DNA of 38,533 nucleotides from Oscillibacter valericigenes (lineage in GTDB: Bacteria > Bacillota > Clostridia > Oscillospirales > Oscillospiraceae): assembly GCF_021531315.1 (NCBI RefSeq), contig NZ_JAFBIQ010000020.1:1-38533 (forward strand). The letters run 5' to 3'. The notes under the pieces are model-generated. The model saw only the letters and a program-made list of their open reading frames with translations. It had not been told where the DNA came from and made no database searches. Within the stretch, counting starts at the first letter, position 1. Each line of letters starts with the position of its first letter. Position numbers and translations under genes: made by a program. Below, in pieces: positions 5,900 to 30,036 of the stretch.

Positions 5900-7615
5900 A
5901 TGAAAACAACAGACCAGCCGCAGGTGAAGCAATACGTCATCTATTCCCGCAAATCCAAATTTACCGGGAAAGGCGAAAGTATTGAGAACCAGATTGAGCT
6001 GTGCCGCCAATATATTGCAATGCACTTTGGCGAAGACGAGGCGGAGCATGCGCTTGTATATGAGGACGAGGGGTTTTCCGGCGGCAATCTGGAGCGTCCG
6101 CAGTTCAAGCAGATGATGAAGGATTCCCAGAAGATTGAGTTCGCTGCTATTGTCGTCTATCGCCTTGACCGTATCAGCCGCAATATTGGTGACTTTGCAA
6201 AGCTCATCGAGGATCTGGGTGACCGGCACATTGACTTCATTTCCATCCGGGAACAGTTCGACACGTCCTCTCCAATGGGGCGTGCAATGATGTATATCGC
6301 GTCAGTGTTCTCCCAGCTGGAGCGAGAAACCATAGCCGAGCGTATCCGCGACAACATGCATGAGCTGTCCAAGACCGGACGCTGGCTGGGCGGGACGACA
6401 CCAACTGGCTACGCTTCGGAAAGCTTGTCCAGCGTAACAGTAGATGGCAAGGTTAAAAAAGCTTGTAAGCTCAAACCTATTCCGGAGGAGATTCAGCTGG
6501 TAAAGACAATTTTTTCTGTGTTCACGGAAAGTGGCTCCCTCAGTAAAACTGACCAGTACTTATTAGAGCACCGCTGTGTCACAAAGCGCGGCAAGCAGTT
6601 CACACGCTTTGCCATCCGGGGTATTCTGACAAATCCGGTTTATATGATTGCTGACGATACGGCGTATCAGTATCTCAAGGAGAACAACGTAGACCTTTTT
6701 GCTGAGCCATCGGAGTTTGACGGTGAGCACGGTATTATGGCCTACAACCGCACACTCCAACGTCCTGGCAAAGCTACTCAGATTCGCCCGATGGAAGATT
6801 GGATTGTGGCAGTGGGGAAACATCCCGGCATTATCTCCGGTGCAAACTGGGTACGAGTACAGTCTATGCTGGACGTGAACAAATCCAAGAGCTATCGCAA
6901 ACCGCGCAGCAATGTGGCGCTTTTGTCCGGCCTTCTGCGTTGTGGCGAGTGCGGTGACTATATGCGCCCGAAACTGACTGGTCGCACTAATGCTAATGGG
7001 GAGTTGATTTACACCTATATGTGCTCCACCAAAGAGCGCAGTCATGGTACTGTCTGTAGTATGAAAAACTGCAACGGCAACACTCTAGATGCTAAGATTG
7101 TTGAGGAAATACGTAAGGTTGCCACCGACAAAAAAGACTTTGGCCAGTTACTGTCAAAAACCAAGAAAGTAATCAATGACAACAAAGCAAGTTATGAAGC
7201 TGAGTTGACTTTATTAGTGAAGAACCATGCTGAAACAGAAGCCCGCATCAAACGACTGGTGGAATCTCTGTCCGTTGCCAGCGAGACCTCGGCCAAATAC
7301 GTCATGGAGCAGATCGATGAGCTGCACCGGCAGAGCGAACAGGAGCAGACAAGAATTGCTGAATTGGAAAAGCTTGCTAGGCAGAGTAATGCTCTGAGCC
7401 AAAATCTATTTTTCTATAGAGATATGATTGAGTCATTCGCCGACACGGTGGATTCGACTACTATTGAAGAACGGCGCCGCCTGCTGCGTACTATCGTCAA
7501 AAAAGTGGTTTGGGACGGCAAAAACGTCTATGTATACCTCTTTGCGGAGGATGGAGAGCTGAATTTGCCGCCCATAGGGCAGCTTATGTGTCCGTCAGGA
7601 GAGGATAGCGAATGA
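5900..7615 (+). CDS. Large serine recombinase of the skin-like element (SpoIVCA-like)
   Basis: 571-residue large serine recombinase; catalyses excision/integration through a 5'-phosphoserine intermediate. Domains: resolvase catalytic domain (about 10-155; YSRKS with Ser19 as nucleophile, YRLDRISRN, QLERETIAERI), recombinase domain (about 175-290), zinc ribbon (CGECGDYM ... C ... C, about 345-395) and a coiled coil (about 410-510). ATG 5900 is chosen because GAGGTG lies just ahead; the frame is open from 5885. Its stop codon TGA (7613-7615) sits within AATGA at 7611-7615, the boundary with the sigma exon. By position and family it should recombine this AATGA with one at the left end of the element (outside the window) to rejoin sigK. 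The region just ahead has TTACAAT at 5855-5861, possibly a -10 of mother-cell type. Confidence 0.9.
   Translation: MKTTDQPQVKQYVIYSRKSKFTGKGESIENQIELCRQYIAMHFGEDEAEHALVYEDEGFSGGNLERPQFKQMMKDSQKIEFAAIVVYRLDRISRNIGDFAKLIEDLGDRHIDFISIREQFDTSSPMGRAMMYIASVFSQLERETIAERIRDNMHELSKTGRWLGGTTPTGYASESLSSVTVDGKVKKACKLKPIPEEIQLVKTIFSVFTESGSLSKTDQYLLEHRCVTKRGKQFTRFAIRGILTNPVYMIADDTAYQYLKENNVDLFAEPSEFDGEHGIMAYNRTLQRPGKATQIRPMEDWIVAVGKHPGIISGANWVRVQSMLDVNKSKSYRKPRSNVALLSGLLRCGECGDYMRPKLTGRTNANGELIYTYMCSTKERSHGTVCSMKNCNGNTLDAKIVEEIRKVATDKKDFGQLLSKTKKVINDNKASYEAELTLLVKNHAETEARIKRLVESLSVASETSAKYVMEQIDELHRQSEQEQTRIAELEKLARQSNALSQNLFFYRDMIESFADTVDSTTIEERRRLLRTIVKKVVWDGKNVYVYLFAEDGELNLPPIGQLMCPSGEDSE
7611..7615. 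other. Recombination core AATGA, right end of element 1
   Basis: AATGA at the sigma codons for N-E of E-N-E-I-L. In B. subtilis skin, excision takes place between 5-bp AATGA copies at this same codon pair of sigK (established knowledge). GC content and reading sense change here from recombinase to sigma factor. Confidence 0.75.
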
Positions 7616-7928
7616 GATCCTGATGTATTTCCGCAGCCGCAAGAAATTGCAGGGCGAGGTCTCGCTCTCGGACGCCATTGAGACCGATCAGGACGGCAAC
7701 GCCCTCATGCTCATGGATGTGGTCGGCGTGGACGATACGATGCTTTCAGATTTGCAGGATCGCGAGGACAGCGCACTGGTCCGCCGGCTCGTGCGTGAGT
7801 GCCTGACCGACCGTGAACGCGAGATTGTCACGCTGCGCTACGGCCTCGGCGGCGGGATGCTGCGCACCCAGCGCGAGATCGCCAAGAAAATGGGCATCTC
7901 GAGGAGCTATGTATCCCGCCGGAACTAA
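7611..7928 (+). pseudogene. sigK: sigK middle exon (RNA polymerase sporulation sigma factor), interrupted on both sides
   Basis: From 7611 the frame reads N-E-I-L-M-Y-F-R, then sigma-K-like linker and region 4 (LTDREREIVTLRYGLGGG, TQREIAKKMGISRSYVS). No start and no region 2 are present: the 5' exon must lie left of the window beyond element 1. The true sigma sequence ends at 7912; beyond it the frame gives only S-R-R-N and a stop (7926-7928), inside the recognition helix of region 4.2, so this form cannot be functional. Residues GISRSYVS fit SigK better than SigE (GISQSYIS). The remaining 20 codons are at 29971-30036. Its high GC matches the right-hand backbone, not the island on either side. 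Two excisions would be needed to make the protein. Confidence 0.88.
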
Positions 7929-7934
7929 TGTAAG
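7906..7934. other. Left attachment junction of element 2
   Basis: GCTATGT (7906-7912) is shared with 29969-29975. The element-side arm GGAACTAATGTAAG (7921-7934) is the exact reverse complement of CTTACATTAGTTCC at the other end. Joining the two GCTATGT copies restores S-R-S-Y-V-S-R-I-E-K-R. Confidence 0.85.
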
Positions 7935-7938
7935 CGAT

Positions 7939-7973
7939 GCCCGGAAAGCCTTGATTTGCAAGGGGTTCCGGGC
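7939..7973. repeat. Hairpin, paired with a similar one at 9568-9607
   Basis: GCCCGGAA (7939-7946) with TTCCGGGC (7966-7973), inner pair CCTTG/CAAGG (7949-7953, 7959-7963). No U-tract follows, so not a standard terminator. The same GCCCGGAAAG-x-CTTG arm recurs after the kinase gene. Confidence 0.6.
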
Positions 7974-8074
7974 TGTAAGAAATTGTAAAAAACAGTCAAA
8001 ACAAGCCGCGCTTATTGTAAGTGGTAAAAGGCACAAAAAACCAAGCGGCCATTCATCACAAATTACAAATGCAG

Positions 8075-8102
8075 TTGACAATTTTAGTGTTTCTATTATA
8101 AT
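8075..8102 (+). promoter_or_regulatory. Promoter of the HipA-like module
   Basis: TTGACA (8075-8080), 16-bp spacer, TATAAT (8097-8102): both boxes are consensus. AT-rich sequence to 8138 before the ribosome site would suit binding by the HTH protein encoded next (autoregulation inferred). Confidence 0.75.
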
Positions 8103-8151
8103 GGAATTAAATTAAAATAATTGCATATAATTTACAAAGGGGAGAGGCGTA

Positions 8152-8757
8152 GTGAACGTGGATTATCGCAAATTATGCTTGGACTTGTTTGGAACGGACG
8201 ATGTAAATGAATTAACAAGGATCGCCCGGATATGCAAGGAAAAGAATCCTCGCAAGGCGGGCCGCAAGAAAAAATTTACTGCGGAGGATGTGCAAACGAT
8301 CCGCAGCTTGATGGAAGACGGAATGACCGTGAACGAAGTGGCGGAGCGATTCCAAACCTCCCGACAGGTGATTGGAAGGTATCTCAATGAAAAGCCGGCA
8401 GAAGGCTATACGCTGCGCTTGACTTATATGTATCAGCAGCACCCCTGTACCATTATTGATGTGGATTTTCTGAATCAAAGAATCATGGTTCAGAACAAAA
8501 CGAAGGACATGCTTCACCGAGCGTTCGGCGTCATTGAAAAACCTACATGGAATGACTTTGAGATGTTTTTAAAGGATCGCTGTTTTCCCGCTACTCGCGG
8601 CAATGCCAAGGAACTATTGAAGGAACTTCAGCTCACATCCTATGATCCCTTGCAGATCATAGAAAAAACGCGGGGTCGGACAGCTGAGGATGATATGTGG
8701 TTGAAGTTCAACTATTACCCGATGGAAGGAGCGGCGTATGGACAGAATCAATCTTGA
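8152..8757 (+). CDS. HTH protein fused to a HipA N1-like domain (HipB+HipS-like)
   Basis: 201 residues starting at GTG behind GGGGAGAG. Residues ~40-85 are a resolvase/Hin-type HTH (KKFTAEDVQTIRSLMEDGMTVNEVAERFQTSRQVIGRYL). Residues ~95-195 resemble the N-subdomain 1 of HipA kinases (AFGVIEKPTWNDFEMFLKDRCFP, LQLTSYDPLQIIEKTRGRTAEDDMWLKF). In canonical HipBA, HTH and N1 are on different proteins; in HipBST, N1 is a separate antitoxin (HipS). Here HTH and N1 share one chain and the kinase core is the next gene, whose start lies 20 bases inside this one. Inference: antitoxin and autorepressor of the following kinase. Confidence 0.65.
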   Translation: MNVDYRKLCLDLFGTDDVNELTRIARICKEKNPRKAGRKKKFTAEDVQTIRSLMEDGMTVNEVAERFQTSRQVIGRYLNEKPAEGYTLRLTYMYQQHPCTIIDVDFLNQRIMVQNKTKDMLHRAFGVIEKPTWNDFEMFLKDRCFPATRGNAKELLKELQLTSYDPLQIIEKTRGRTAEDDMWLKFNYYPMEGAAYGQNQS

Positions 8758-9550
8758 TGCTGTTGAGCAGGAACCAATCCAAGGACACACTTCGAAAGGC
8801 GACCAGCCGAAATGGCAGCTGGATGGCAAGTGGTACAAAGCTGACCACATGGGCTATGAGGCGCTGGCTGAAATTTTGGTATCACAGTTGCTGAAACAGT
8901 CCAATGTGCCCGACTTTGTAGAATATGAGCCTGTGCTGATTCAGTATCAGGGAAAAGAAACTCCTGGTTGTGTCAGCAAAAACTTTCGGAGAAAAGATGA
9001 GATGTTGGTGCCATTTGAGCGGCTGCACCGTGCCTATAAAGGTCGAGGTCTGGCGGCAGCGCTTGGCGGGATAAATGAACCGCGGGAACGGATTCGCTAT
9101 ACGGTAGACTTCATTGAACAAACTACCGGCCTGACCGGAATGGGAGAATATCTGACATTGCTGTTGGAGCTGGATTCTTTCTTTTTGAACGAGGACCGCC
9201 ATACAAACAATCTGGCTGTTATCCGAAATGAGAAGACGAAGGAATTTCGTCTCTGTCCGATTTTTGATAATGGTTTGGCCTTGCTGTCGGATCTTAATGA
9301 CTATCCTGTGGACAAGGATGTTTATGATTGCATCAGGCGCGTTCGTGCCAAGCCCTTTGATATGGACTTTGATGTGCAGGTCGAAGCTGCCGAAGAATTG
9401 TATGGAGCACAGTTAAAATTTTCATTTGTCCGGCATGATATTCCCAAAATGTTAGATGCTGTCGGAGGAGTATATTCCAGCGCGGTTATTGCCAGAGTCG
9501 AGCAGGCCGTATATGAACAGATACGAAAATATCCAGTATACTTTTTGTGA
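8738..9550 (+). CDS. Short HipA-like serine/threonine kinase (HipT-like toxin)
   Basis: 270 residues, shorter than HipA (about 440) because the N1 domain is on the preceding protein. Visible kinase features: GDQPKW...KWYKAD (Lys34, candidate ATP lysine), catalytic loop NEDRHTNN (151-158; Asp153) and metal-binding FDNG (176-179). HipA-family kinases phosphorylate aminoacyl-tRNA synthetases or similar targets and arrest growth (family knowledge); the target here is unknown. The ATG overlaps the end of the HTH gene behind GGAAGGAGCGG, so the two are translationally coupled. Followed by a strong hairpin. Confidence 0.75.
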   Translation: MDRINLDAVEQEPIQGHTSKGDQPKWQLDGKWYKADHMGYEALAEILVSQLLKQSNVPDFVEYEPVLIQYQGKETPGCVSKNFRRKDEMLVPFERLHRAYKGRGLAAALGGINEPRERIRYTVDFIEQTTGLTGMGEYLTLLLELDSFFLNEDRHTNNLAVIRNEKTKEFRLCPIFDNGLALLSDLNDYPVDKDVYDCIRRVRAKPFDMDFDVQVEAAEELYGAQLKFSFVRHDIPKMLDAVGGVYSSAVIARVEQAVYEQIRKYPVYFL

Positions 9551-9835: not shown

Positions 9836-10396
9836 TTATTTTCCATGAAGAAGTTGAAGCATTTTCTCATACAATCTCATTGTTGCTTTTGCATCGCCTA
9901 AAGCAGTATGCCTTCCGTCCACAGTGATTCCAAAAAATTTGAATGCTTGGGCCGAACTATTTATTGTGTCTGTTATTATGCCGCCATCTTGCAGAAATTT
10001 TAATACAGAATAAGTATCAACAATCCTATGAAGAAAAATGTTGTCAAAACTTCTGCGATTATCCTTAAACATCTTTTTGATAAACTGTACATCAAACTGT
10101 GTGTTATGCCCAGCCAGAGGAATGGCTGTATAGTCGGCAAAATATACTTCCTTAATCTCCTCGAATTTTTTTATCACGGCTTGAGGGACAATGGCATCAT
10201 TAAAATCAGAATCTGTCAATTTGTTAATTCTCTGCGCCGTTTTGGTAATCCGGCAGTTTTCGTTTTTTAGGCGGTACTCTGCGCTGTAGCATTCACCCAG
10301 AACAGAGTCCCACACAACAAAACCGACTGATAGGAGAGAATGCTTTTCAGGGTCTAATCCTCCGGTTTCAGTATCAATAAAGAGCAATCGAGCCAT
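9836..10396 (-). CDS. DEDDh 3'-5' exonuclease (DnaQ/RNase T-like)
   Basis: 186 residues, essentially one exonuclease domain. DEDDh catalytic residues are visible: Asp8 and Glu10 (IDTETGG), Asp102 (GHNTQFD), His163 and Asp168 (HTALGDA). Such single-domain proteins degrade single-stranded DNA or RNA from the 3' end. A full polymerase subunit is excluded by the context: it follows, three bases after the stop, a membrane protein gene (10400-11185), so the two form an operon. Inference: nuclease part of a two-gene defence or toxin unit. Confidence 0.85.
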   Translation of the reverse strand: MARLLFIDTETGGLDPEKHSLLSVGFVVWDSVLGECYSAEYRLKNENCRITKTAQRINKLTDSDFNDAIVPQAVIKKFEEIKEVYFADYTAIPLAGHNTQFDVQFIKKMFKDNRRSFDNIFLHRIVDTYSVLKFLQDGGIITDTINSSAQAFKFFGITVDGRHTALGDAKATMRLYEKMLQLLHGK

Positions 10397-10399
10397 GAT

Positions 10400-11414: not shown

Positions 11415-12401
11415 TTATTGCACCAATTTATACTTCCAATGTCCGCCCACATGTAGTTTTACAATCTTTTCTGCTGATACTAACTCAACCAAAATTCGAT
11501 TTGCCGTCGCTGCCGACACTCCACACAACTCTCGCACATCAGCGTTCATGATATAGTCGTGGGTTTTCAAATACTCCTGGATCTTGTTCCAGCGGAAAGT
11601 TGCCGTATCCACCTTTACATCGCTCATTTCATCACTTGCGTTGATGGCACCCATGAGCGATGCTTTGATGGCTGAGAGCATAAACTCGATAAACACCGTG
11701 GACCCTCCGGCGTCATTGGAGCCATTGATGGCTGCATAATACTCCTGCTGACGGTCATGGATGATGGATTCCACCGGCAGCCAGGCAAAAGCAGGATTCC
11801 ATTTAGAGAGCAGCAACGTATGCCACAGGCGACCCACACGACCGTTTCCATCAGCAAAGGGGTGGATTAGCTCAAACTCATAATGGAACACACAACTGCG
11901 TATCAACATATGCACGTTGCTGTTTTTCACCCAGTCCAGCAGCTCCATGACCAGATCCGGGACATACTGCGGCAGAGTGCCGAAATGCAGGACATGCCCT
12001 TCCTGATCCACGACGCCGACAGGCTTGGAGCGGAACACCCCGGACTCATCCACCAGCCCCCGGGTCATGATGCCGTGAGCGGTCAGCAGGTCATCCACTG
12101 AGTAGGGGTCAAGCTCGTCCAACCGCTCATAAATCTCATAAGCATTCTTAACCTCGGCAATATCCTTGGGCGGAGCCAGAACCTGCTTGCCGTTGAGAAC
12201 AGCCGTGACCTGTTCCAGCGTAAGGGTGTTCTGCTCAATGGCCAGCGAGCCATGAATTGTCCGGATGCGATTGGTGCGCCGCAAAGTAGGGTTGGCTGAT
12301 AGCTGATTCATAGAGATCAACCGTCCAACTAGCTCCGCAATTTCCGCGACATGGTCGATCATCGCATTTGTAATTTCAAAAGGAGGTTTTTTGTTCCGCA
12401 T
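11415..12401 (-). CDS. Fic family protein, class II, with C-terminal winged helix
   Basis: 328 residues. Fic motif HPFADGNGRVGR at 180-191 (catalytic His180). Inhibitory-helix motif SLAIEQN at 52-58 precedes the Fic core, as in class II Fic proteins that are self-inhibited. The C-terminal ~65 residues form a winged helix (MNADVRELCGVSAATANRILVELVSAEKIV). Fic enzymes transfer AMP or related groups to Ser/Thr/Tyr hydroxyls (family knowledge); the target is unknown. Full length and intact. It diverges from the integrase gene at 12531, separated by about 130 bases. Stress or defence role inferred only. Confidence 0.9.
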   Translation of the reverse strand: MRNKKPPFEITNAMIDHVAEIAELVGRLISMNQLSANPTLRRTNRIRTIHGSLAIEQNTLTLEQVTAVLNGKQVLAPPKDIAEVKNAYEIYERLDELDPYSVDDLLTAHGIMTRGLVDESGVFRSKPVGVVDQEGHVLHFGTLPQYVPDLVMELLDWVKNSNVHMLIRSCVFHYEFELIHPFADGNGRVGRLWHTLLLSKWNPAFAWLPVESIIHDRQQEYYAAINGSNDAGGSTVFIEFMLSAIKASLMGAINASDEMSDVKVDTATFRWNKIQEYLKTHDYIMNADVRELCGVSAATANRILVELVSAEKIVKLHVGGHWKYKLVQ

Positions 12402-12530
12402 CCTGCCACCTCATGTAAAAACTTGTTTATATTATTATATCAAACATCACTCCTTTCATCAATCATGTTTTACCGTGACTTGAGTGATGTTATTCTTATT
12501 TTGCACATCAAAAACAAAGGAGGAACCACT

Positions 12531-13754
12531 TTGGCATCAATTGTTCAGCGGGGCAAAAGTTACAGCGTGGTGTACTACACACAGGTAAACGGCATTCGCA
12601 AACAAAAGTGGGAGAGTTTTCGCACTGAAAAAGATGCACTGCACCGGAAACGTGTGGTCGAGTATTACCAACAGACAAAGAAAGAACTAGCCCATCGCCC
12701 GCAAACGGTAAAACAGCTAATTCAGGAATATGTATGGTTATATGGAAGAGCAAAATGGTCACTGTCCATGTACACATCCAGTCGGGGATTGATTCAGAAT
12801 TACATCAATCCCTACTTTGGCAGCGTTCGCTTGGAGGAACTGACGCCACGGTTGGTATCTAAACTTTACATGGAATTTCAAAAGGAATCGCGATACTGCG
12901 GGACATATCACAAATATGAGGGACAAACTGTCTCTGCCAGTACATTAAAGAGCGTACATAAACTGCTGCATAGCGCTTTTGAGCAGGCAGTTCTGTGGGA
13001 ATATGTGGATCGCAACCCCTTTCATAAAGCAGCGCTCCCTAAAACCAAATCAACACCATCGGTATTCCTATCCCCGGAGCAAATCCAACTCCTTTTGTGC
13101 CATTGCAGCGTGTCGTGGCTGCGGTTAGCGATTGAACTTTCTTTCGTATGCACACTACGCAGAGGTGAATTATTGGCGTTGACATGGGACGATATTAACT
13201 GGGAACAGAATTCATTGCAGATCAGTAAGACATTGTGCCGGGTCAGTAAAGATGCCATGCTGATGTTAGATAAGCGAGATGTTTTGCGCATATTCCCAAC
13301 TGACGCTCTCAACAAAACAGCCCTCGTTCTAAAATCGCCCAAAACTGAATCGAGCAATCGCATTGTCTATTTTCCACCATCGTTAAAGCGCTCCCTGTTT
13401 GAATGGCAAAATGAGCAGAAAAAATCAGCCATCGGTGAATTGCCGAGGCTGATTTTCGCTTATGAAGATAACCTGCCGCTGCAAGGAGGCGTTCTTACGA
13501 ATCATTTTCAAAAACTTCTGGCGAAATGCAATCTCCCGAAAGTGACCTTTCACAGCTTACGCCACAGCAGTATTACTTATAAGCTGATTCTGACAGGCGG
13601 GGACATTAAAGCAGTGCAGGGTGATTCGGGCCACTCGCAAGCAGACATGATCACAGAGATTTATGGTCACACACTGGATGCAAATCGTCGTAAAAATACG
13701 GAGAGATTTGAGAAAGAATTCTATCAAAATTGTGGCACTATTTCGTGTAATTGA
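12531..13754 (+). CDS. Tyrosine integrase A (Tn916-like)
   Basis: 407 residues from TTG 12531, which follows AAAGGAGGAACCACT; the longer open frame (from 12351) overlaps the Fic gene and has no ribosome site. N-terminal AP2-like arm-binding domain (SYSVVYYTQVNGIRKQKWESF), core-binding domain, catalytic domain with Arg (CTLRRGELLALTW), HSLRHSS, GHSQADM and Tyr in TEIYGHT. It is related over its whole length to integrase B (24016-25407). Just past its stop is a fragment (13760-13777) matching the tRNA-Arg anticodon-arm site next to integrase B, probably its attachment site. No excisionase gene is seen beside it. Confidence 0.88.
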   Translation: MASIVQRGKSYSVVYYTQVNGIRKQKWESFRTEKDALHRKRVVEYYQQTKKELAHRPQTVKQLIQEYVWLYGRAKWSLSMYTSSRGLIQNYINPYFGSVRLEELTPRLVSKLYMEFQKESRYCGTYHKYEGQTVSASTLKSVHKLLHSAFEQAVLWEYVDRNPFHKAALPKTKSTPSVFLSPEQIQLLLCHCSVSWLRLAIELSFVCTLRRGELLALTWDDINWEQNSLQISKTLCRVSKDAMLMLDKRDVLRIFPTDALNKTALVLKSPKTESSNRIVYFPPSLKRSLFEWQNEQKKSAIGELPRLIFAYEDNLPLQGGVLTNHFQKLLAKCNLPKVTFHSLRHSSITYKLILTGGDIKAVQGDSGHSQADMITEIYGHTLDANRRKNTERFEKEFYQNCGTISCN

Positions 13755-14363: not shown

Positions 14364-14388
14364 AATAACATAAGTGAGGTGCCTGATA

Positions 14389-15495
14389 ATGTATACTGAA
14401 ATTGTAAAAATTATTGAAGGTGGACTGGTTAATGACAAGGAGAAAGTAATTAATTATGCCACTGTCTTAGCTAACAACTTGGAAAAACAAGGTGATATTT
14501 CTTTGGCAAAGAAAATAAGATCAACATTAATTCAAAAAAAAGGAGCGCTTACAGCCCTGGATAGTTTTGCGACAAAGCCTGTCGATGCAGAAAGCAGAAT
14601 GGACATAGTTGAGGTCTCATATCCACAAGTTGATGCAGCTCAAATAGTATTGAGCAAATACACGCAGGAAGCAATATATAACTTTATTGAAAGCTATAAT
14701 CGTAGAGATGTACTACTCAAATCTGGTTTTGATGCCTCAAATTCTTTGTTGCTTTATGGCCCTCCTGGGTGCGGTAAAACCACGGTAGCTCAATTCATTT
14801 CTAGTATTACTGGACTTCCCCTAGTAACGGCCAGACTTGACGGCTTAGTATCTTCCCTACTTGGAAGCACAGCAAAAAACATTCGCAAGATATTTGATTA
14901 TGCATCAAGACGAGAGTGTATTCTATTTCTGGATGAATTTGATGTTGTCGCCAAATTGCGTGATGACAAGAATGAGCTTGGAGAGCTAAAACGAGTCGTA
15001 AATAGTTTGATTCAAAATATCGATACCTTTAGCAGCGACAGTATTTTGATTGCTGCAACCAATCATCAAGAACTGCTTGATCCTGCAATATGGCGCAGGT
15101 TTACGACTGTTATAACATTGGACAGACCACAAAAAGAAGAAATAAAGCAATTGCTTTTTGTTATTCTCAACGGAAAATCGACAAATTTTCTTGCAGTTCC
15201 TAAAAAACTAGATTTTATTGAAGCCGCACTGGTTGGACTAAGTCACTCTGATATTAAGACTATTATTTTCAATGCAATGCGCGGCGTCATCTTATCGGAT
15301 AGAGACTGCCTGACAAACTGTGATGTACTAAAAGAAATCTATTTCCATAGAAACCATACAGTTGAAGATGAAGATGAACTCATTAAGTATCTTATGGAAA
15401 ATGGTGCCACACACAAAGAAATCAACGAAAGCATGAAGATCCCTCTTCGCAAAATTCAAGGCATTTCAAAAAATGTTGACAGAAAGGAGCCGTAA
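14389..15495 (+). CDS. ietA: AAA+ ATPase of an IetAS-like defence pair
   Basis: 368 residues from ATG 14389 (GTGAGGTG ahead). Unassigned helical N-terminus (1-95), then a single classical AAA domain: Walker A GPPGCGKTT (about 124-132), Walker B ILFLDEFD (about 178-185), sensor 1 AATNH and arginine finger WRRF, followed by a helical lid and a C-terminal extension with an HTH-like stretch (ATHKEINESMKIPLRKIQGI). Paired three bases upstream of a subtilisin-like protease. AAA plus S8 protease pairs are the IetAS system, known as anti-phage defence (Gao et al. 2020) and earlier as a plasmid stability module on an Agrobacterium plasmid. The AAA protein probably remodels substrates for, or restrains, the protease (inference). 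Confidence 0.82.
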   Translation: MYTEIVKIIEGGLVNDKEKVINYATVLANNLEKQGDISLAKKIRSTLIQKKGALTALDSFATKPVDAESRMDIVEVSYPQVDAAQIVLSKYTQEAIYNFIESYNRRDVLLKSGFDASNSLLLYGPPGCGKTTVAQFISSITGLPLVTARLDGLVSSLLGSTAKNIRKIFDYASRRECILFLDEFDVVAKLRDDKNELGELKRVVNSLIQNIDTFSSDSILIAATNHQELLDPAIWRRFTTVITLDRPQKEEIKQLLFVILNGKSTNFLAVPKKLDFIEAALVGLSHSDIKTIIFNAMRGVILSDRDCLTNCDVLKEIYFHRNHTVEDEDELIKYLMENGATHKEINESMKIPLRKIQGISKNVDRKEP

Positions 15496-18640: not shown

Positions 18641-19135
18641 ATGTTTACACCACATGAAATCTTGGATAAGGGGTCTTTCTGCACATTGGTGATTGCCTGT
18701 CAGGAGACCATGTTCCGTACGGCCAAGAGCATTCTCCGTCAGGATGAGGATGCCGAGGATGCTGTGCAGGACGCCATCTGCACAGCCTTTGCCAGTCGGG
18801 ACTCTCTGCGAGATGTTCAGCGGTTCAAGCCCTGGCTTCTGCGGATTCTCACCAACAAGTGTTATGACCTCTGCCGGAAACGGCGTCCCACCGTAGATCT
18901 GGAAGATATGGCAGACCGACTACCATCGGAGAGTCAGGACCACGATCAGCGGATGACGCTGTGGCAGGCGGTACTGTCCTTGCCGGAAGACCTGCGAGTG
19001 CCTGTTACCTTGTTTTATTACGAGGACCTTTCCGTGCGTGAGATCGGACAGGTGCTGGGGATCAGTGAAGCGGCGGTGAAAACGCGCCTGTCCCGTGGAC
19101 GGGGGCGGCTGCGCCTTCTGCTGGAAGAAAAATGA
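18641..19135 (+). CDS. ECF sigma factor (SigV-like)
   Basis: 164 residues. Sigma region 2 at about 12-75 (DAEDAVQDAICTAF, KPWLLRILTNKCYD) and region 4 at about 108-160 (LSLPEDLRVPVTLFYYEDLSVREIGQVLGISEAAVKTRLSRGRGRL). ATG 18641 with AAGGAAGGAG further upstream. Followed eight bases later by an RsiV-like anti-sigma gene. Such pairs respond to envelope stress such as lysozyme in other Firmicutes (family knowledge). High GC compared with the region to its left suggests a separate acquisition. Confidence 0.9.
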   Translation: MFTPHEILDKGSFCTLVIACQETMFRTAKSILRQDEDAEDAVQDAICTAFASRDSLRDVQRFKPWLLRILTNKCYDLCRKRRPTVDLEDMADRLPSESQDHDQRMTLWQAVLSLPEDLRVPVTLFYYEDLSVREIGQVLGISEAAVKTRLSRGRGRLRLLLEEK

Positions 19136-20459: not shown

Positions 20460-22391
20460 TGCCGTAAGGACAAGGCGAACACCGTTTGGAAGGACACCAA
20501 GAAAGCAGAGGACAGAACACTGCCGTATACCATCACCAAGGCCGCCGCTCCGGTGCTGGACGATATTTCTGTCAGGCAGAAGTACACCTTGTCCACCCAG
20601 CAGAGCAAAGACATCGGCCGCGCGGGGATGCCCGCCGACGCTGGCACCCTGAGCTATGCCAAGGGCACCGAGGATGCTATTCCCTACGTCAGCAGCTGGA
20701 GCGTGAACAACACCACCGGCGAAGTGACCTACACGCTGTCCGGCGGCACCGTTGGCGACACTGTGACCCTGCCCATCAAGATCACCTCCACCAACTACGC
20801 GGATTCCACCGTCAATGTGGTGATCACCCTGACGGATAAGGACACTCCCACGGTCAAAGCCAACGACATCACCGTGACCTACACCGGCTCTGCTGTTCCT
20901 GACAGCGCCATTACCGGCACTGCCAGCGTGGAAGGCACCGCCAGCGTGGAAGGCACCTGGAGCTTCAAGAACGCGGCTCCCGTGAATGTTGCGGACAGCA
21001 GCGACAGAGTGACCGTGGTGTTCACCCCCACGGATACGGCCAACTATGAAACGGTTGAGGATATCATCAAGGTGACCATCAACAAGGCCACCCCCACCGG
21101 TACGCCCGCTTACACCGCCATCACCACCGGTGGCAAGACCCTGGCGGACGCGGCTCTGGCCGTGGGCAGCATCACGCCCGCCGGCGGTTCCATCGCGTGG
21201 GACGTTGCCGCCGACACCGCTGTAACAGCCAACACCGCCTACAACTGGACTTATACTCCCACCAACACGGACAACTATAACAATCTGACCGGAAGTATTA
21301 CGCCCTATGTGGTGTCCTCCTCCGGCGGCGGCTCCTCCTCCAGCACCACCACCAAAACGGAGAAGAATCCCGACGGCTCCACCACCACGACGGTCACTGA
21401 CAAGACCACCGGCACCGTGACGGAGACCACCAAGAACACCAACGGCAGCACCACCGTGGTGGAGACCAAGAAGGACGGCACCGTCACCGAAACCGTCAAG
21501 GCCGCTGACGGCACCACCAGCACCGTTGTTACGGACAGCAGCGGCGAGGTCGCCGAGGTCAAGGTTTCCGTTTCCTCCGCCGCTGTCACGGAGGCCGCCA
21601 AAACCGGCGATGCCGTGACCCTGCCCGTGGAAGTCCCCGCCGCTAAGACCACCGGGGACGCTCCCGCCGTGGAAGTTTCCGTGCCCAAGAGCGCCGGCTC
21701 CGTCAAGGTGGAGATCCCCGTGGAGACCGTCACTCCCGGCACCGTGGCCGTCATCGTGAAGGCCGACGGCACCGAGGAGATCGTGTCTATCTCTATCCCT
21801 ACCGAAACCGGCGTGGTGCTGACCCTGGACGGCAGCGCTACCGTGAAGGTCATTGACAACGTCAAGGTGTTCGAGGACATTCATTCCGTCAATCACTGGG
21901 CAGAGGACGCCGTGGACTTCGCCTCTGCCCGGGGCATCACCGACGGCACCTCTGATACCACCTTCTCTCCCAACGCTTCCTGCACCCGAGCGCAGATCGT
22001 CACCTTCCTGTGGCGGGCGGCCGGGTCTCCTGAGCCCAAGGGCTTGAGCAGCCTTTCCGATGTTCCCGCCGACGCCTACTACGCCAAGGCGGTGGCTTGG
22101 GCATTGGAGAACGGCATCACGGGAGGAACCGGCAACGGTATGTTCAGCCCCGATGCCACCTGCACCCGCAGTCAGAGCGTGACCTTCCTCTATCGCGCAG
22201 CCGGGTCTCCCACGGCTTCTGATGACATCGCGTTCGGCGATGTTACCGCTGAGAGCTACTATGCCGACGCCGTGGCCTGGGCCGCGCAGAACGGCATTAC
22301 CAGTGGCATTGGCAGTGGGCTCTTTGGACCTGCCAATGAGTGCTCTCGGGCTCAGATCGTGACCTTCCTGTACCGTTGGCTGGTCGGGTAA
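20460..22391 (+). pseudogene. SLH-domain surface protein, 5' end missing
   Basis: The frame enters at 20460, after a stop, already inside a repeat domain (KDKANTVWKDTKKAEDRTLPYTITKA) with no signal peptide or ribosome site, so the 5' part is lost. It contains repeated Ig/bacterial-surface-like segments (about 30-250), a Thr/Ser/Gly-rich linker, a beta-rich region rich in TVTET repeats, and three C-terminal SLH domains (VNHWAEDAVDFASARGITDG, YYAKAVAWALENGITGG, YYADAVAWAAQNGITSG; each with TRAQIVTFLWR-type ends) for anchoring to the cell wall. Without secretion signals it cannot work as a surface protein unless rejoined. Confidence 0.8.
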
Positions 22392-22630: not shown

Positions 22631-23071
22631 TTGAAGCTATCGCCATCTCAAATGAAAACCGTAAGGCATCAGTTTGACAGCTTGTGCAGAAAGGTGCTGC
22701 GGGAGGAAAGCCGCAACTACAAGAAGCAGTTTGCCCGCAGAGCCGAAAAGGAAGTAAACCTTTCGGAGCTGTCAGAAACGGAACTCAGTCTGCTTTATGT
22801 GATGGACGAATACCCCTCTGACAGCACTTTCTTTGATGTGCTGGATTACCGTGTGGCAGTCAAGGATGACCGACTTGCAGAAGCGCTGGCGGCTTTGCCG
22901 AGCAAGAAGCGCGATGTACTCCTGCTGTCGTACTTCCTGGACATGAGCGATACGGAGATCGCTGAAAAGCTCAAGGTGGTCGGTTCGACCATCCATCGCA
23001 GGCGGACAAGCTCTCTCAAAGAATTGAAACTAAGATTGGAGGTTAAGGAGGATGGACAAGAAACAGAATAA
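22631..23071 (+). CDS. Tn916-type sigma-70-like factor
   Basis: 146 residues from TTG 22631 (GGAGGTG at 22617-22623). The C-terminal half is a sigma region-4-like HTH (LPSKKRDVLLLSYFLDMSDTEIAEKLKVVGSTIHRRRTSSLKELK); the N-terminal half is helical. It corresponds in position and appearance to the sigma-like regulator (orf7 type) of Tn916-family elements, which sits before the HTH, excisionase and integrase genes, as here. Regulates conjugative or excision genes in such elements; no conjugation genes are present in this window. Confidence 0.8.
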   Translation: MKLSPSQMKTVRHQFDSLCRKVLREESRNYKKQFARRAEKEVNLSELSETELSLLYVMDEYPSDSTFFDVLDYRVAVKDDRLAEALAALPSKKRDVLLLSYFLDMSDTEIAEKLKVVGSTIHRRRTSSLKELKLRLEVKEDGQETE

Positions 23072-23303
23072 CAAGCATACCCTGCTTCCGTTTTCTGTGA
23101 TCGAAGCGGCAACAACCGGCAATGTTGACGCAATTAATGCCGTCTTGAAGCATTACGAGCCGTACATCGCGGCGTTGGCAACCAGACGCCTCTATGACGA
23201 AAACGGTGTGCCGCATCTGTGCGTGGACGATGAGTTGCGTAAGACGCTGGAAATCAAGCTGATTACGAAGATCCTCAGTTTTGAACTCGTAAAGGCAGCA
23301 TAA
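23052..23303 (+). CDS. Tn916-type HTH protein (orf8-like)
   Basis: 83 residues overlapping the end of the sigma-like gene by 20 bases, behind GTTAAGGAGG. The sequence FSVIEAATTGNVDAINAVLKHYEPYIAALATR resembles the short helix-turn-helix conjugative-transposon proteins that follow the sigma-like gene; the C-terminal CVDDELRKTLEIKLITKIL helix is typical. Coupled expression with the preceding gene. Confidence 0.8.
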   Translation: MDKKQNNKHTLLPFSVIEAATTGNVDAINAVLKHYEPYIAALATRRLYDENGVPHLCVDDELRKTLEIKLITKILSFELVKAA

Positions 23304-23318
23304 CCCCGGTTCATACAC

Positions 23319-23346
23319 GGCGGCGTGTCCCCCTTTCCACGCCGCC
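23319..23346 (+). terminator. Hairpin after the HTH gene
   Basis: GGCGGCGTG (23319-23327) / CACGCCGCC (23338-23346), loop of ten bases, no U-tract. Confidence 0.5.
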
Positions 23347-23799
23347 GCTATGGGCTTTTCCTGCTTGCGGGTATCAGTTATCAATCTCTCTGTTTGATGG
23401 CTGATACGGGCCGACAGGAGCCTTAATCGCACCTTGAAAAAGAAAGCGGCTTATGGACGCAGAATACGGCAGACAGGTACATTCGTGTCAAAGTGAGCCA
23501 CGCGGCAGATCCGCCAAGACCTCTTTTTGCAGAGCGAGCGATTACGATCCAGCCGGAAAGCAGACTGGCAATCTGCCGGCCATGATCTTTGCCACCCCTA
23601 ATGATACTCCCGAATTGAACGCCCTCAAAGCATTGTTCGGCGCACCCATCAGCATGGGCCGAGGTGAAAATCCTGTGGAGCTGCTGCCAGCAGCCGTCTG
23701 TCTGTTTTCCTTTTTTATGACCTGAAAAATTTGTGAATTTGGCGGCACCGTATTACAATTTTGATTGTCGGTACGATGCTGCTTGGAAAGGAGGCTGCT
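23347..23799. other. Gap with a start-less coding remnant
   Basis: A protein-like frame without start (L-E-K-E-S-G-L-W-T-Q-N-T-A-D-R-Y-I-R-V-K-V-S-H...) runs from about 23435 to the stop at 23581-23583; it may be a decayed gene of the Tn916-like module. No other gene is supported. Confidence 0.35.
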
Positions 23800-24000
23800 A
23801 TGGACTACGAAAGCAGCACAATAAATAGTCATTCCGGCAAACGAACCTATACAGTAAAAGAAATATCTGACATCCTTGGTATCGGGAGAACTGCCGCTTA
23901 TAAACTTGTTCACTCTGGCGTATTCAAGACCGTACAGATCGGAACAACGATCAGAGTATCCAAGCAATCTTTTGATGAATGGCTTGATAGACAGATGTAA
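23800..24000 (+). CDS. Excisionase (Xis-type, MerR-like HTH)
   Basis: 66 residues from ATG 23800 behind GAAAGGAGG. Classic excisionase/DNA-binding domain: YTVKEISDILGIGRTAAYKLVHSGVFKTVQIGTTIRVSKQSFDEWL. Immediately precedes integrase B (16 bases), as in Tn916-type and other integrative elements, where it bends attachment-site DNA to favour excision. Confidence 0.88.
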   Translation: MDYESSTINSHSGKRTYTVKEISDILGIGRTAAYKLVHSGVFKTVQIGTTIRVSKQSFDEWLDRQM

Positions 24001-24015
24001 TTCAGGAGGTTTATC

Positions 24016-25407
24016 ATGGCTTCAATCAGAAAGCGTAGAAACAAATTTAATGTCGTGTATTATTACACGAATGACCAGGGCGAGCGCAAGCAGAAGTGGG
24101 AGCCCTTCGATACCGAGGAAGAAGCAAAGACGCGCAAAGCAGAAATTGAATACAAAATGAAGGTCAACACCTTTATTGCTCCCAGCAATCTGACGGTAGC
24201 TGCCTTTTTGGAGGACTTTGTTTCCCTGTATGGTGTAAAGAAATGGGGGCCTTCCACTTACGAAGCAAACTGCGGACTGATCCGAAACTATATCAACCCC
24301 TTTATTGGCGATGAGCTGATTCAGAACATAAACACCATGGCGGCGGATAAGTTTCTCACACGGTTGCAAAAGACCCCTTGCGCTGTTCGGAAAAATCGCT
24401 ATTCTTCCACGCAGTACATGACCCCTGCCGGAATCGCAAATATCAACAAACTCTTGAAATGCGCCTTTAAGCAGGCTGTACGATGGGACATTATTTCTAA
24501 GAACCCATTTGAGAATACCACCCTGCCGAAAGTAAAGCGCGAACCCCGTGCGATTTGGGATGCCGCGACGATTCGTAAGGCTCTGGATGCGTGTAAAGAT
24601 AGTAAACTCTATGTTGCTATGAACCTTTCCTTTGCCTGCTCGCTGCGGATTGGGGAGATCCTTGGCTTGACTTGGGATAACATCCATATCAGTGATGCCG
24701 ATATAGCGCGCGATGACGCCCACCTGTGCGTGGAGAAAGTCCTTTGGCGTGTCCGTGAAGATACGCTGAATATGCTGGGAACGGAGGAAATCATTAAGGT
24801 TTTCCCCAGAACCATGTATCTGGAGAATGCCAGCACGGTCATCGTTCTGAAAACGCCGAAAACGGAAAGCAGTGTTCGCAAAGTGTGGATGCCCAAAACG
24901 GTTGCTTACATTCTCCGGGAATGGAAGGCTTCACAGGACAAGCAGAAGGCGTTTCTTGGCGATGAGTATCTGGATTATGGTCTTGTCATTGCTTTGCCTA
25001 ACGGTCGTCCTTGTGAGGAAACCGTCATCAATAACGCCTTCAGACGGCTCAAGAAAGAAGCCAACCTTCCCAATGTTGTTTTTCATTCCCTCCGGCACAG
25101 CAGCACGACTTACAAGCTGAAACTGAATCACGGGGATCTGAAAGCGACGCAGGGTGACACCGGCCACTCCCAGGTGGACATGATTACAAAAATCTATGCG
25201 CATATTCTGGATGAGGATCGTAAAGTCAACGCGCAGAAGTTTGAATCCGCATTTTATGCGAACCCCGATCTGCGAAGCGTTCATGCTCCGCAGGAAGAAA
25301 AAACGCAGCCGGTGCTGGATGCGCAAACTCTTTTGTCTCAGCTTCAGCAGTCCCCGGAACTCTTGTCGAACCTGACATCGCTTATCTTGGATCAGGCGGG
25401 GCGATAA
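24016..25407 (+). CDS. Tyrosine integrase B (Tn916-like)
   Basis: 463 residues; AGGAGG ribosome site at 24004-24009. AP2-like arm-binding domain (NKFNVVYYYTNDQGERKQKWEPF), SAM-like core-binding domain (about 60-165), catalytic domain with Arg (CSLRIGEILGLTW), HSLRHSS, GHSQVDM and Tyr in KIYAHI. The C-terminal ~55 residues (PVLDAQTLLSQLQQSPELL) extend beyond the usual end. It lies 170 bases from the 3' end of tRNA-Arg(CCU), and copies of GGTGCCA on both sides of the tRNA look like arm sites. Together with the Xis this is the working integration module of the Tn916-like unit. Confidence 0.92.
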   Translation: MASIRKRRNKFNVVYYYTNDQGERKQKWEPFDTEEEAKTRKAEIEYKMKVNTFIAPSNLTVAAFLEDFVSLYGVKKWGPSTYEANCGLIRNYINPFIGDELIQNINTMAADKFLTRLQKTPCAVRKNRYSSTQYMTPAGIANINKLLKCAFKQAVRWDIISKNPFENTTLPKVKREPRAIWDAATIRKALDACKDSKLYVAMNLSFACSLRIGEILGLTWDNIHISDADIARDDAHLCVEKVLWRVREDTLNMLGTEEIIKVFPRTMYLENASTVIVLKTPKTESSVRKVWMPKTVAYILREWKASQDKQKAFLGDEYLDYGLVIALPNGRPCEETVINNAFRRLKKEANLPNVVFHSLRHSSTTYKLKLNHGDLKATQGDTGHSQVDMITKIYAHILDEDRKVNAQKFESAFYANPDLRSVHAPQEEKTQPVLDAQTLLSQLQQSPELLSNLTSLILDQAGR

Positions 25408-26268: not shown

Positions 26269-26745
26269 ATGAAGAAATCAACTTGGAAAACCTATGACTT
26301 CTGGATCGTTCTGGCGGAAGCAGTCGGCGCGCTCTCTGGCTGGCTGACGCGAAAAGGTGTCAAGGTCTACAACGCAATCGTCGAGCAGCCGCCATTGTCT
26401 CCGCCGAGCATTGTGTTCCCCATCGTTTGGGGGATTTTGTTTGCACTCATGGGTATTGGAGCTGCGCGGATCTATTTGGCTCCAGCGTCCAATGCCCGGT
26501 CACGCAGCCTGCTGCTGTTTCTCGTGCAGCTGGCATTCAATTTCTTCTGGAGCATCATCTTCTTTAATTTACAAGCCGTTGGGTTCGCGTTCCTTTGGCT
26601 GATCGCACTGTGGGTCTTAATCCTGTTGATGATTTTGTCCTTCCGGAAAGTGGATAAACCGGCTGCATGGCTGCAAATTCCGTATCTGCTTTGGGTGACA
26701 TTTGCAGCGTATCTCAATTTTGGAGTATGGTTACTCAACCGGTAA
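26269..26745 (+). CDS. tspO: TspO/MBR family membrane protein
   Basis: 158 residues with five membrane segments (about 10-25, 44-65, 80-97, 103-122, 130-152), the TspO fold. Signature stretches: PPLSPPSIVFPIVWGILFALMGIGA, FNFFWSIIFF and PYLLWVTFAAYLNFGVWLLN. TspO binds porphyrins and related ligands and is linked to stress responses. The ribosome site is weak (AGGTGAT). Position 1 of the protein begins with a KxxW leader; full length for the family. Confidence 0.92.
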   Translation: MKKSTWKTYDFWIVLAEAVGALSGWLTRKGVKVYNAIVEQPPLSPPSIVFPIVWGILFALMGIGAARIYLAPASNARSRSLLLFLVQLAFNFFWSIIFFNLQAVGFAFLWLIALWVLILLMILSFRKVDKPAAWLQIPYLLWVTFAAYLNFGVWLLNR

Positions 26746-26806
26746 AGAAATTGGAATAGCCATCTTGTGAAAACGTAAGTTAGTTCACTTTCCAGCGGAA
26801 ATCATG

Positions 26807-26812
26807 TATAAT
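26807..26812 (+). promoter_or_regulatory. -10 element ahead of the VbhA-like gene
   Basis: TATAAT at 26807-26812; a weak -35 TTCACT at 26784-26789 is 17 bp upstream. The start codon is 24 bases downstream. Confidence 0.55.
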
Positions 26813-26835
26813 ACCTCTGCAGGGAGGTGCATCTG

Positions 26836-27042: not shown

Positions 27043-27080
27043 AAATGCCGGTCGCGACTGGCAAATTGAATACACTGCAT

Positions 27081-27115
27081 TATGAGCACTTTGTCACAGC
27101 GACAAGGTGCTCATA
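27081..27115 (+). terminator. Hairpin after the VbhA-like gene
   Basis: TATGAGCAC / GTGCTCATA plus TTGTC/GACAA, loop of five bases; no U-tract. The rest of 27116-27335 shows no gene. Confidence 0.5.
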
Positions 27116-27335
27116 TCATAAATAAGATATGGACAACCAATCACGCTGTTACCAGAGGACATTCTTATCGATCTTACGAACGCATTGCTCAATATGCTTA
27201 AAAAAACTTTGCGATACCGCATAGCGTGTACATCCATTTACCAGAATCCAAAATATTTCCTGCAAATAAGGGTTTTTGTCATTCTGAGAATTGAGTGGAT
27301 ACCCCTGCGCGACCGTACCAAAGGGGTGATGAATC

Positions 27336-28028: not shown

Positions 28029-28031
28029 GAA

Positions 28032-28068
28032 GAAAAGCGATGAGTCCATGTGACCCATCGCTTTTCTT
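28032..28068 (+). terminator. Rho-independent terminator
   Basis: GAAAAGCGATG / CATCGCTTTTC, then TTAT; the A-rich start also makes it usable from the other strand. Confidence 0.8.
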
Positions 28069-28133
28069 ATAAGCAAAAGCAAATTTACCTGCATTGCCGC
28101 ATAGTCTGTACCAATTCATGAAGGAGGTGTGCC

Positions 28134-28274
28134 ATGAAAGCACAGGAACTGGTAATCAGCTGTTTTTACGATAATGATGGGGAGTCCATACGGGACTTGC
28201 TATATTCATCCTTCGCTGCCTTCCTCAAGCGGGAGCTTGGAAAATTTGCGCCCGCACAGGAACATCCTGTATGA
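28134..28274 (+). CDS. Small protein upstream of the element-2 recombinase
   Basis: 46 residues (MKAQELVISCFYDNDGES..., ending AQEHPV) with an excellent AAGGAGGTG site seven bases before ATG. Forty bases upstream of the recombinase gene, so probably co-transcribed. No family assigned. By position it could be a directionality factor for the recombinase or simply a leader peptide; this is inference. Confidence 0.6.
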   Translation: MKAQELVISCFYDNDGESIRDLLYSSFAAFLKRELGKFAPAQEHPV

Positions 28275-28314
28275 TAGACGGGATGAATGGCCGCTTATCT
28301 CAGGAGGTTAGAGT

Positions 28315-29892
28315 ATGTATCAAGAGATAAGCAACCCTATGGATTATCATGTGGCATTATACATCAGACTATCAAAGGAGGATGAGAGCGAAGGACCATC
28401 GCAGAGCGTGACCAATCAGAAGTCTCTTTTAGATGAATTTGTCCAAAAGCACCGTTTACAAGTTTATGACACCTACATTGACGATGGCTGGAGCGGAACC
28501 AACTTTGACCGTCCGGATTTTCAGCGAATGATCGGCGATATTGAGGCCAAGAAGGTCAACATGGTCATTACCAAGGACTTGAGCCGTCTGGGACGTGACT
28601 ACATCATGACCGGTCACTATATGGAGCGGTACTTCCCGGAGCATCGGGTGCGCTACATTTCCCTCTTGGACGGTATTGACACCGGCGTGGAGTCCAGCGC
28701 CAATGATATTACGCCCTTCCGCGCCATTATGAACGACATGTACGCCAAGGACATTTCCAAGAAGATCAAGTCCGTCAAGCGGGATAAGCAGCGCAAGGGG
28801 CAGTTTATCGGCGGCAAACCGGTATATGGCTACAAAATGCACCCGACTGAAAAGAACAAGATCATCATTGATGAGGAGGTTGCGCCCATAGTGCGGCGGA
28901 TCTTTGCCATGGCGCTGGACGGCGTTAGCTGCCGCCAAATTGCCGCTACGCTGAACGAGGAGGGCGTCCTCACACCGGCCACCTACTGCGGCTGGAACAT
29001 GGGCCGCAAAGGACCCTATGCGGGGCTGTGGAGCAGCGAGCGCATTTCCAATATGCTGCAAAATGAGACCTACATCGGCAATATGGTGCAGGGGCGGCAA
29101 GTGAAGATCAGCTACAAGTCTAAGAAGTGTTTGCATCAGGATCGTAATAATTGGGTTGTGGTTGAAGATACCCATGAGCCACTGATCGACGCTGAGAGTT
29201 TCCGCAAGGTGCGGATGCTGGTGAACAGCCGCAAACGCACCCGAAGCCGTACCTATGATTTTCTGTTGAAGGGCTTGATTTTCTGCCACGAATGCGGTCA
29301 TCCCTTGGGCGTGCTGAATCGCCCCAACGCCAAGGGAGAAGAGACACTGTATTTCGTCTGCCGTACCTATCAGCGTTTTACCAAGAACAGTGCCTGCACC
29401 ACACATTATATCAAGGAAAAAACGGTAACGGATGCAGTGATTGCCAAGGTTCGAGAGGTCTGCGAAGGGTATTTGACCGCGGAAGCATTGCTTCCCGCTG
29501 CGGAAAAGGCGGTGAAGGAGGCGTCGCAGGAGAACAAGTCGGCGGCGGAGATCAGCGCTCTGCAAAATAAGAGTGCCAACCTTACAGAGCACCTTGACCG
29601 AATGTACACCGACCGTCTTTCCGGTTTGCTGCCGGAGGAGGACTTTCAGCGTATCTTCACCCGTATCAAGGATGAACGGGCACAGCTGGAGGAACGAATC
29701 AAGGAACTTCAACAGCAGCAAAAGAACCCTATCAGCCAAACAGAGCGAGCAAAAGATTTGGTACAAAGATACCTTGATACGGCATATGCCAACCGGGAGC
29801 TGCTGGTCAGCCTCATTGACCGGATCGAGCTGACCGAGGAGAAGCGGGTCATCATCAAATTCCGTTTTGCGGAGCTTGATGAAGCGGGATAA
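28315..29892 (+). CDS. Large serine recombinase of element 2
   Basis: 525 residues, CAGGAGGT ribosome site. Resolvase catalytic domain (about 13-160; LYIRLSKEDE with Ser20 as nucleophile, TKDLSRLGRDYIMTG, DISKKIKSVKRDKQRKG), recombinase domain (about 175-285), zinc ribbon (CHECGHPLG ... C ... C, about 325-365) and coiled coil (about 410-480). Different from the element-1 recombinase (low resemblance outside catalytic motifs), so the two elements have separate origins. It ends 60 bases before the inverted arm of the right attachment site, the usual position for an enzyme acting on these ends. Expected role: excision joining 7912 to 29976 and restoring sigK; timing unknown. Confidence 0.92.
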   Translation: MYQEISNPMDYHVALYIRLSKEDESEGPSQSVTNQKSLLDEFVQKHRLQVYDTYIDDGWSGTNFDRPDFQRMIGDIEAKKVNMVITKDLSRLGRDYIMTGHYMERYFPEHRVRYISLLDGIDTGVESSANDITPFRAIMNDMYAKDISKKIKSVKRDKQRKGQFIGGKPVYGYKMHPTEKNKIIIDEEVAPIVRRIFAMALDGVSCRQIAATLNEEGVLTPATYCGWNMGRKGPYAGLWSSERISNMLQNETYIGNMVQGRQVKISYKSKKCLHQDRNNWVVVEDTHEPLIDAESFRKVRMLVNSRKRTRSRTYDFLLKGLIFCHECGHPLGVLNRPNAKGEETLYFVCRTYQRFTKNSACTTHYIKEKTVTDAVIAKVREVCEGYLTAEALLPAAEKAVKEASQENKSAAEISALQNKSANLTEHLDRMYTDRLSGLLPEEDFQRIFTRIKDERAQLEERIKELQQQQKNPISQTERAKDLVQRYLDTAYANRELLVSLIDRIELTEEKRVIIKFRFAELDEAG

Positions 29893-29913
29893 ATCCAGTC
29901 ATATCAATGGTTT

Positions 29914-29937
29914 GCGCCGTTAGGAGCGGCGCGATTT
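29914..29937 (+). terminator. Terminator of the recombinase gene
   Basis: GCGCCG / CGGCGC with loop TTAGGAG, followed by GATTTTC. The short stem and U-run fit a terminator. Confidence 0.7.
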
Positions 29938-29951
29938 TCAAGACGAAATCA

Positions 29952-29975
29952 CTTACATTAGTTCCCGCGCTATGT
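29952..29975. other. Right attachment junction of element 2
   Basis: Arm CTTACATTAGTTCC (29952-29965) is the reverse complement of 7921-7934; core GCTATGT (29969-29975) equals 7906-7912. The reconstructed circular site has 14-bp arms with 18 bases between them and GT at the exact centre, the layout of serine-recombinase attP sites. Confidence 0.85.
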
Positions 29976-30036
29976 CTCGCGCATCGAGAAGCGGGCGCTG
30001 GAAAAGCTTGAGCAGGCGCTCGGCTCGCGCGGCTGA
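29969..30036 (+). pseudogene. sigK: sigK 3' exon
   Basis: From 29971: Y-V-S-R-I-E-K-R-A-L-E-K-L-E-Q-A-L-G-S-R-G, stop at 30034-30036. It is the missing end of sigma region 4.2 and the C-terminus. No start, no ribosome site. Joined after T7912 it gives an in-frame GISRSYVSRIEKRALEKL, the normal SigK ending. Confidence 0.88.

Follow-up and report, generated by a model that had tools for sequence, protein, structure and literature searches.

Two large serine recombinase elements divide sigK of an Oscillibacter-like genome into three pieces, one of them at codons that are interrupted repeatedly in relatives

Can a sigK gene that is broken at two places still give rise to a sigma factor? The question is raised by a 38,533-bp contig (C35, hereafter the window) of an Oscillibacter-like draft genome of 2.48 Mb in 122 contigs. 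An earlier sequence-only reading of this DNA had proposed that sigK is divided into three parts by two unrelated recombinase elements, that both would have to leave for the gene to be restored, and that this arrangement, apparently without a described parallel, was either a two-key control of sporulation or the mark of a permanently asporogenous strain. Coordinates below refer to the window, and features lie on its plus strand unless stated otherwise.

The sigK gene of this genome is indeed in three pieces, split by two unrelated recombinase elements. Exon 1 was found on a different contig from exon 2 (C67:14072–14410, minus strand of C67), confirming the upstream interruption by element 1. 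Exon 2 spans 7611–7912, from the site-1 core AATG (7611–7614, with a second copy at the end of exon 1 on C67) to the site-2 crossover, after which the frame reads S-R-R-N and stops, as originally described. Exon 3 (29976–30036) provides the last 19 codons and the stop; the proposed continuation, SRIEKRALEKLEQALGSRG followed by a stop, ends at 30036 and begins ~80 bp behind a serine recombinase gene at 28315–29892. Joining the pieces at AATG and GCTATGT restores an unbroken reading frame without any base change and gives a SigK of 232 residues, with a start codon chosen by us. SigK profiles gave this product its best call, at 287 bits under NCBIfam NF004471 (cut-off 252), while its score under TIGR02846 (281.6) is below that model's cut-off of 298.65. 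Profile and sequence searches of the contigs found no second complete sigK in the draft genome; the strongest other sigK-like match is SigE (380.8 bits against an NCBIfam cut-off of 339), and we therefore found no spare copy. The view that both elements must leave to restore sigK is thus upheld for this draft.

Element 1 encodes the large serine recombinase LSR1 (5885–7615), which overlaps the start of exon 2, has the Pfam domains Resolvase, Recombinase and Zn_ribbon_recom, and matches its counterpart in Oscillibacter sp. ER4 at 89%. Over exon 2, the named relatives among the best matches included Oscillibacter sp. MSJ-31 (93%) and ER4 (73%). Near the start of the contig, a methyltransferase-like open reading frame (31–1485), which from its motifs we take to be DNA cytosine methyltransferase-like, is seemingly also carried by element 1.

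Element 2 (7913–29973; core-to-core unit 22,063 bp) interrupts sigK within its recognition-helix codons; the GC content of the element is 0.47, against 0.61 in exon 2. The repeat GCTATGT is present at both junctions (7906–7912 and 29969–29975), as the sequence-only reading had it, but the exchange itself is probably confined to the GT within it (7911–7912 and 29974–29975). This follows from the right sides, which vary among relatives (GCGAT-GT, GGAAA-GT, CCGAG-GT and others), and from some relatives having in common only GT and the codon bases that come after it. On the left, the relatives shown have TAYGT. Just inside the ends, the left attP arm GGAACTAATGTAAG (7921–7934) is an inverted copy of the right arm CTTACATTAGTTCC (29952–29965), and similar arms are found in relatives. 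About the GT, the element-side arms are near-palindromic, 15 of 16 positions agreeing in the best stretch of that length, a value reached by none of 10,000 shuffles. A GC-rich hairpin that by eye resembles a terminator follows the left arm (7939–7973), and its left side is conserved in many relatives. The attP pattern had no matches in viral contigs, and no excised form was seen. Two relatives differ at this point: in L018 (G003:C29), the site-2 cut in sigK has another arm sequence (S-Q-R-A-Y), and the 19 kb of surrounding DNA compared contain no LSR2 match, and in L101 the gene is broken right after S-R-S-Y at an unrelated junction, possibly by another element.

The recombinase of element 2, LSR2 (28315–29892), has the three large serine recombinase domains, by which it is complete, and is ~20% identical to LSR1. 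Directly upstream lies a 46-aa open reading frame (28134–28274) with no family match in NCBIfam, PHROGs or Pfam. A profile built from eight such frames recovered a homologue before LSR2 in 38 of the 42 loci, out of 51, that had enough upstream DNA, and gave a weak match in L190. On the basis of this position and recurrence, the 46-aa protein is perhaps the directionality factor of element 2. LSR2 is preceded by a sigma-A-like promoter, TTGCGC-18-TATGAT (28246–28275), and across the 18 of 51 loci, the window included, in which our script delimited the small frame, sigma-A-like boxes scored 8.89 against 7.76 (sd 0.19) in shuffles. A sigma-E promoter before the small frame was weakly indicated (8.56 against 8.17, sd 0.18). 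LSR2 has one internal stop each in G095, where it is TAG, and in G154. In the named-phage collection, 187 records matched LSR2, all at <60% identity and at ≤37% among the 25 listed, so no close phage carrier was found there. The attP of Alicyclobacillus phage MMB025 has the core TCTC; we make no claim that it shares the sigK site.

Between its ends, element 2 carries a varied cargo. An HTH protein (8152–8757; Pfam HTH_7; 68.5% in L189) is paired with a gene at 8738–9550, whose product we presume to be HipA-like and which weakly matches the PADLOC candidate PDC-M03A; the pair (8152–9550) is also present in the L189 element. On the minus strand follow a DEDDh-type exonuclease (9836–10396; profile matches including PADLOC) and a Fic protein (11415–12401; PADLOC SoFic), which recurs more widely than any other cargo gene in the comparison, with homologues in loci of six other genomes. 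A nested tyrosine integrase (12351–13754; Pfam), presumably of the Tn916-like type, probably starts further downstream than annotated. Both parts of an IetAS anti-phage system come next, the AAA ATPase IetA (14374–15495; PADLOC E = 5e-133) and the subtilisin-like protease IetS (15499–17637; E = 1e-288). Beyond them, profile matches identified an ECF-type sigma factor (18641–19135) and a protein with S-layer homology domains (20553–22391), and Pfam an integrase module (22631–25407) composed of a sigma-like regulator, an HTH_16 protein and a tyrosine integrase (24016–25407). The last is a TspO/MBR protein (26269–26745). No virion structural gene was assigned when 10 element-2 open reading frames were compared with PHROGs, one HTH protein matching a small-terminase profile, and the selected frames scanned for a relaxase gave no match. 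From three other elements, 6 of 7 chosen proteins had PADLOC matches (AriA/OLD-like, CARF and PDC candidates), and several elements are thus predicted to carry anti-phage genes.

How widespread are elements at this site? LSR2 relatives (E ≤ 1e-140) are present in 51 of 400 family genomes and 33 of 106 genera, those of the window included. We inspected all 51 and found LSR2 beside the end of a sigma gene in 44: in 42, the sigma C-terminal piece lies within ~100 nt behind the recombinase, and in 2 the element is inverted and a truncated sigma gene adjoins the recombinase. Among the 7 non-adjacent cases, three (G104, G286 and G164) have a truncated sigK on the same contig as LSR2, while the remaining four (G272, G113, G378 and G040) show no positional link between LSR2 and a cut sigma gene, although sigK is nonetheless cut at site 2 in the first three of these. 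An exon-2 search (E ≤ 1e-24) gave matches in 37 of the 50 other carriers; G018, G040 and G199 were left out, and the 34 that were read make 35 with the window genome. In all 35, sigK is cut at site 2, and in 8 also at site 1; G140, which reads TYAGRCIQ, was scored by eye as intact at site 1, giving 8 double cuts and not 9. Scored against the window genome's own sigma factors, each of the 35 pieces fits SigK better than SigE, which speaks against SigE being the gene cut in distant carriers. Extending the search to the class (E ≤ 1e-120) added 11 of 391 genomes, 8 of them with the recombinase at the same kind of site.

For 14 elements, the window's included, both ends are known, and all join in the same phase. 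They range in size from 2.4 to 103 kb, as obtained by subtraction with nine of the 14 re-measured. The smallest family member (L190, in G288; 2.4 kb) holds little beyond the recombinase and a TspO gene, a homologue of the one in element 2. In L088, L189, L194, L195 and L196 the recombinase gene is inverted with respect to sigK, in several of them near the left end, implying that attP is flipped relative to the gene.

These elements have moved horizontally. LSR2 of the window genome is 97% identical to that of ER4, while exon 2 of sigK is 73% identical; the corresponding dS values are 0.20 for LSR2, 0.51 for LSR1 and 1.1 for sigK. Against MSJ-31, dS is 1.42 for LSR1 and 0.59 for exon 2. Some pairs have LSR2 at 92–97% identity and sigK at 49–60%, and across the 35 genomes LSR2 and sigK distances correlate weakly, with a Mantel r of 0.25 (11 of 2,000 permutations as high). 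The histories of the recombinase and of sigK thus disagree, as expected of mobile elements.

Interruption of sigK has parallels, and the following comparisons draw on portions of the cited papers. In B. subtilis skin, as here, a large serine recombinase element with a short core and a small open reading frame before the recombinase lies inside sigK, and its removal restores the frame; the 64-aa directionality factor Skr is encoded directly upstream of spoIVCA (PMC6957869). The AATG core of element 1 resembles the skin core, AATGA (PMC10745906). Element 2 likewise lies inside the sigK frame beside a large serine recombinase, with a short core and frame-restoring removal, and is skin-type in these respects; it sits ~300 bp downstream of the AATG core and not at the AATGA site, and is not skin proper. 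Unlike B. subtilis skin, it is near the 3′ end of sigK, has GT as its likely crossover and an LSR ~20% identical to LSR1, contains no recognized virion genes in the frames scanned, and shares sigK with another element. In C. difficile skinCd, the recombinase CD1231 is expressed from a sigma-A promoter, similar to that before LSR2, and a separate factor, CD1234, gives direction (PMC5025042). The account of skinCd describes one element per sigK, and the consulted portions of PMC5025042, PMC4430133 and PMC3789822 give no position for it within the gene; it could coincide with site 2, and the novelty of that site is therefore not absolute.

Insertions at different places in sigK are known (PMC10745906, PMC13141910). 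In the B. cereus group, island IV, a 22-kb non-phage element excised in sporulation, lies at position 195 and the AH820 and J7/J62 insertions at 423 (PMC10745906); this group, too, has more than one insertion point, but as described there only one insertion per strain, both positions being upstream of site 2. Other sporulation genes from which elements are excised, or into which they are inserted, include gerE (gin, a non-prophage element driven by a large serine recombinase), spsM (SPbeta), spoVFB (vfbin) and yabG (yin) (PMC5595907, PMC10747680), and none of these is described in those portions as sharing its gene with a second element. Nothing in the open PMC literature, to the extent consulted, described two elements in one sigK or an element family at its 3′ end. 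Among the genomes compared, the doubly cut gene proved not to be unique: there are ten double cases of LSR2 type (8 of the 35 genomes, L062 and L088), and relatives of element 2 are widespread.

Two further loci show other combinations. Oscillibacter sp. MSJ-31, which we take to be G011, also has sigK in at least three pieces (L236/L238 at G011:C2:255135, L266 at G011:C21:10258, and L029), made by another pair of elements: exon 1 is cut after A-H-I-V-K-K beside a third recombinase (554 aa), and the middle piece is on a different contig. This third cut point falls close to where island IV is reported in B. cereus, at position 195. In L147, an IMG/VR contig of 4,460 bp, sigK exon 2 meets the end of an LSR1-type recombinase gene, and immediately upstream the opposite strand encodes an LSR2 relative (88% over 362 residues), which suggests that one element is inside or beside the other.

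Taken together, our preferred reading, to which we give a probability of about 0.72, is that element 2 is a horizontally acquired integrative element at the recognition-helix codons of SigK and that each element is excised in the mother cell. In this reading, LSR2 attaches at these highly conserved codons, with the exchange probably falling at GT, and the classical skin site of the same gene houses an unrelated recombinase element. The sequences themselves show the anatomy, the in-frame join, the site specificity, the recurrence and the horizontal movement; excision, when it takes place and the part played by the small frame are inferred. For skin, skinCd and gin, the portions consulted establish excision in the mother cell with a directionality factor (PMC6957869, PMC5025042, PMC5595907), and two independent excisions would accordingly be expected here. 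Each element would probably be excised in the terminal mother cell by its own recombinase and directionality factor, reconstituting sigK without a base change, whereas the forespore chromosome would keep both.

That the junctions were created by joining unrelated contigs, or a minority form, in assembly is very improbable. The draft is in 122 contigs with exon 1 apart from the rest, but the same junctions occur in many independent assemblies, among them the 4.3-Mb one-contig genome G095, where the three exons follow in order, the first at 1133858, the second at 1144944 and the third near 1167010. A more serious alternative, which we nevertheless judge unlikely, is that the insertion destroyed sigK for good, leaving a lineage that has ceased to complete its spores. 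Exon 2 is under purifying selection, slightly weaker in interrupted than in intact genes (median dN/dS 0.107 against 0.066, p = 0.017; 37 of 48 and 59 of 85 loci usable), a difference that fits such decay; these values also cover the time before insertion and are therefore no proof of use after it. Stops consistent with decay are present in G286, where the stop is in the junction codons and no right end was found, and in G018, as a TAG inside the matched sigK piece. Against loss of function, none of the 48 interrupted loci compared, which do not include G018, has an in-frame stop before the junction, and all 42 right ends keep V-S-R-I/L-E-K and the reading frame. LSR2 is itself under purifying selection (dN/dS about 0.1 against the ER4 copy), and the window genome has spoIVA, spoIIID and one SASP gene above cut-off, as well as sigE. 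The permanent asporogeny once suggested for this strain is thus disfavoured, with the slightly weaker constraint as a reservation.

Retention of both elements as a co-evolved pair, acting jointly as an AND gate that times sigma-K, appears distinctly less probable than loss of the gene. Double cuts do recur, in the ten cases above, and the joined SigK keeps a leader sequence that we take to be like a pro-sequence, so that the cell would need two excisions in addition to processing. If the elements were a joint lock, however, double cuts should be enriched. In the best 80 of 140 exon-2 matches in genomes with titles, a second sample selected for its resemblance to the query, both sites were cut in 6 loci, site 1 only in 46, site 2 only in 7 and neither in 19, with 2 at a contig edge. 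Site 2 was therefore cut in 6 of 52 loci with site 1 cut and in 7 of 26 with site 1 intact (Fisher p = 0.11), making doubles if anything fewer than expected. One of the 6 is L101, with a junction that is not of LSR2 type, and the samples overlap: L030 is ER4 (G001), and junction peptides only were used to equate L076 with G107 and L084 with G041. The conflicting histories of the two elements relative to ER4 also argue against joint retention, and the two-key control proposed earlier is not borne out.

Independent excision of horizontally acquired elements has a broader implication, which we advance tentatively and at slightly less than even odds. The 3′ end of sigK may be a standing attachment site for Clostridia-wide mobile elements that carry defence genes and survive because the mother cell excises them while the forespore keeps them; together with an element at the skin site, sigma-K would become an AND gate of two independent recombinases and two directionality factors. 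With the alleles described here, sigK interruption is no longer confined to a few model cases and becomes a recurring trade in which mobile elements and sporulation take part. The LSR2 homologues, their matched att sites and the candidate directionality factor form a ready set for recombinase biochemistry, and the natural single, double and empty alleles of related genomes make it possible to test whether sporulation is regulated by such elements or merely shelters them.
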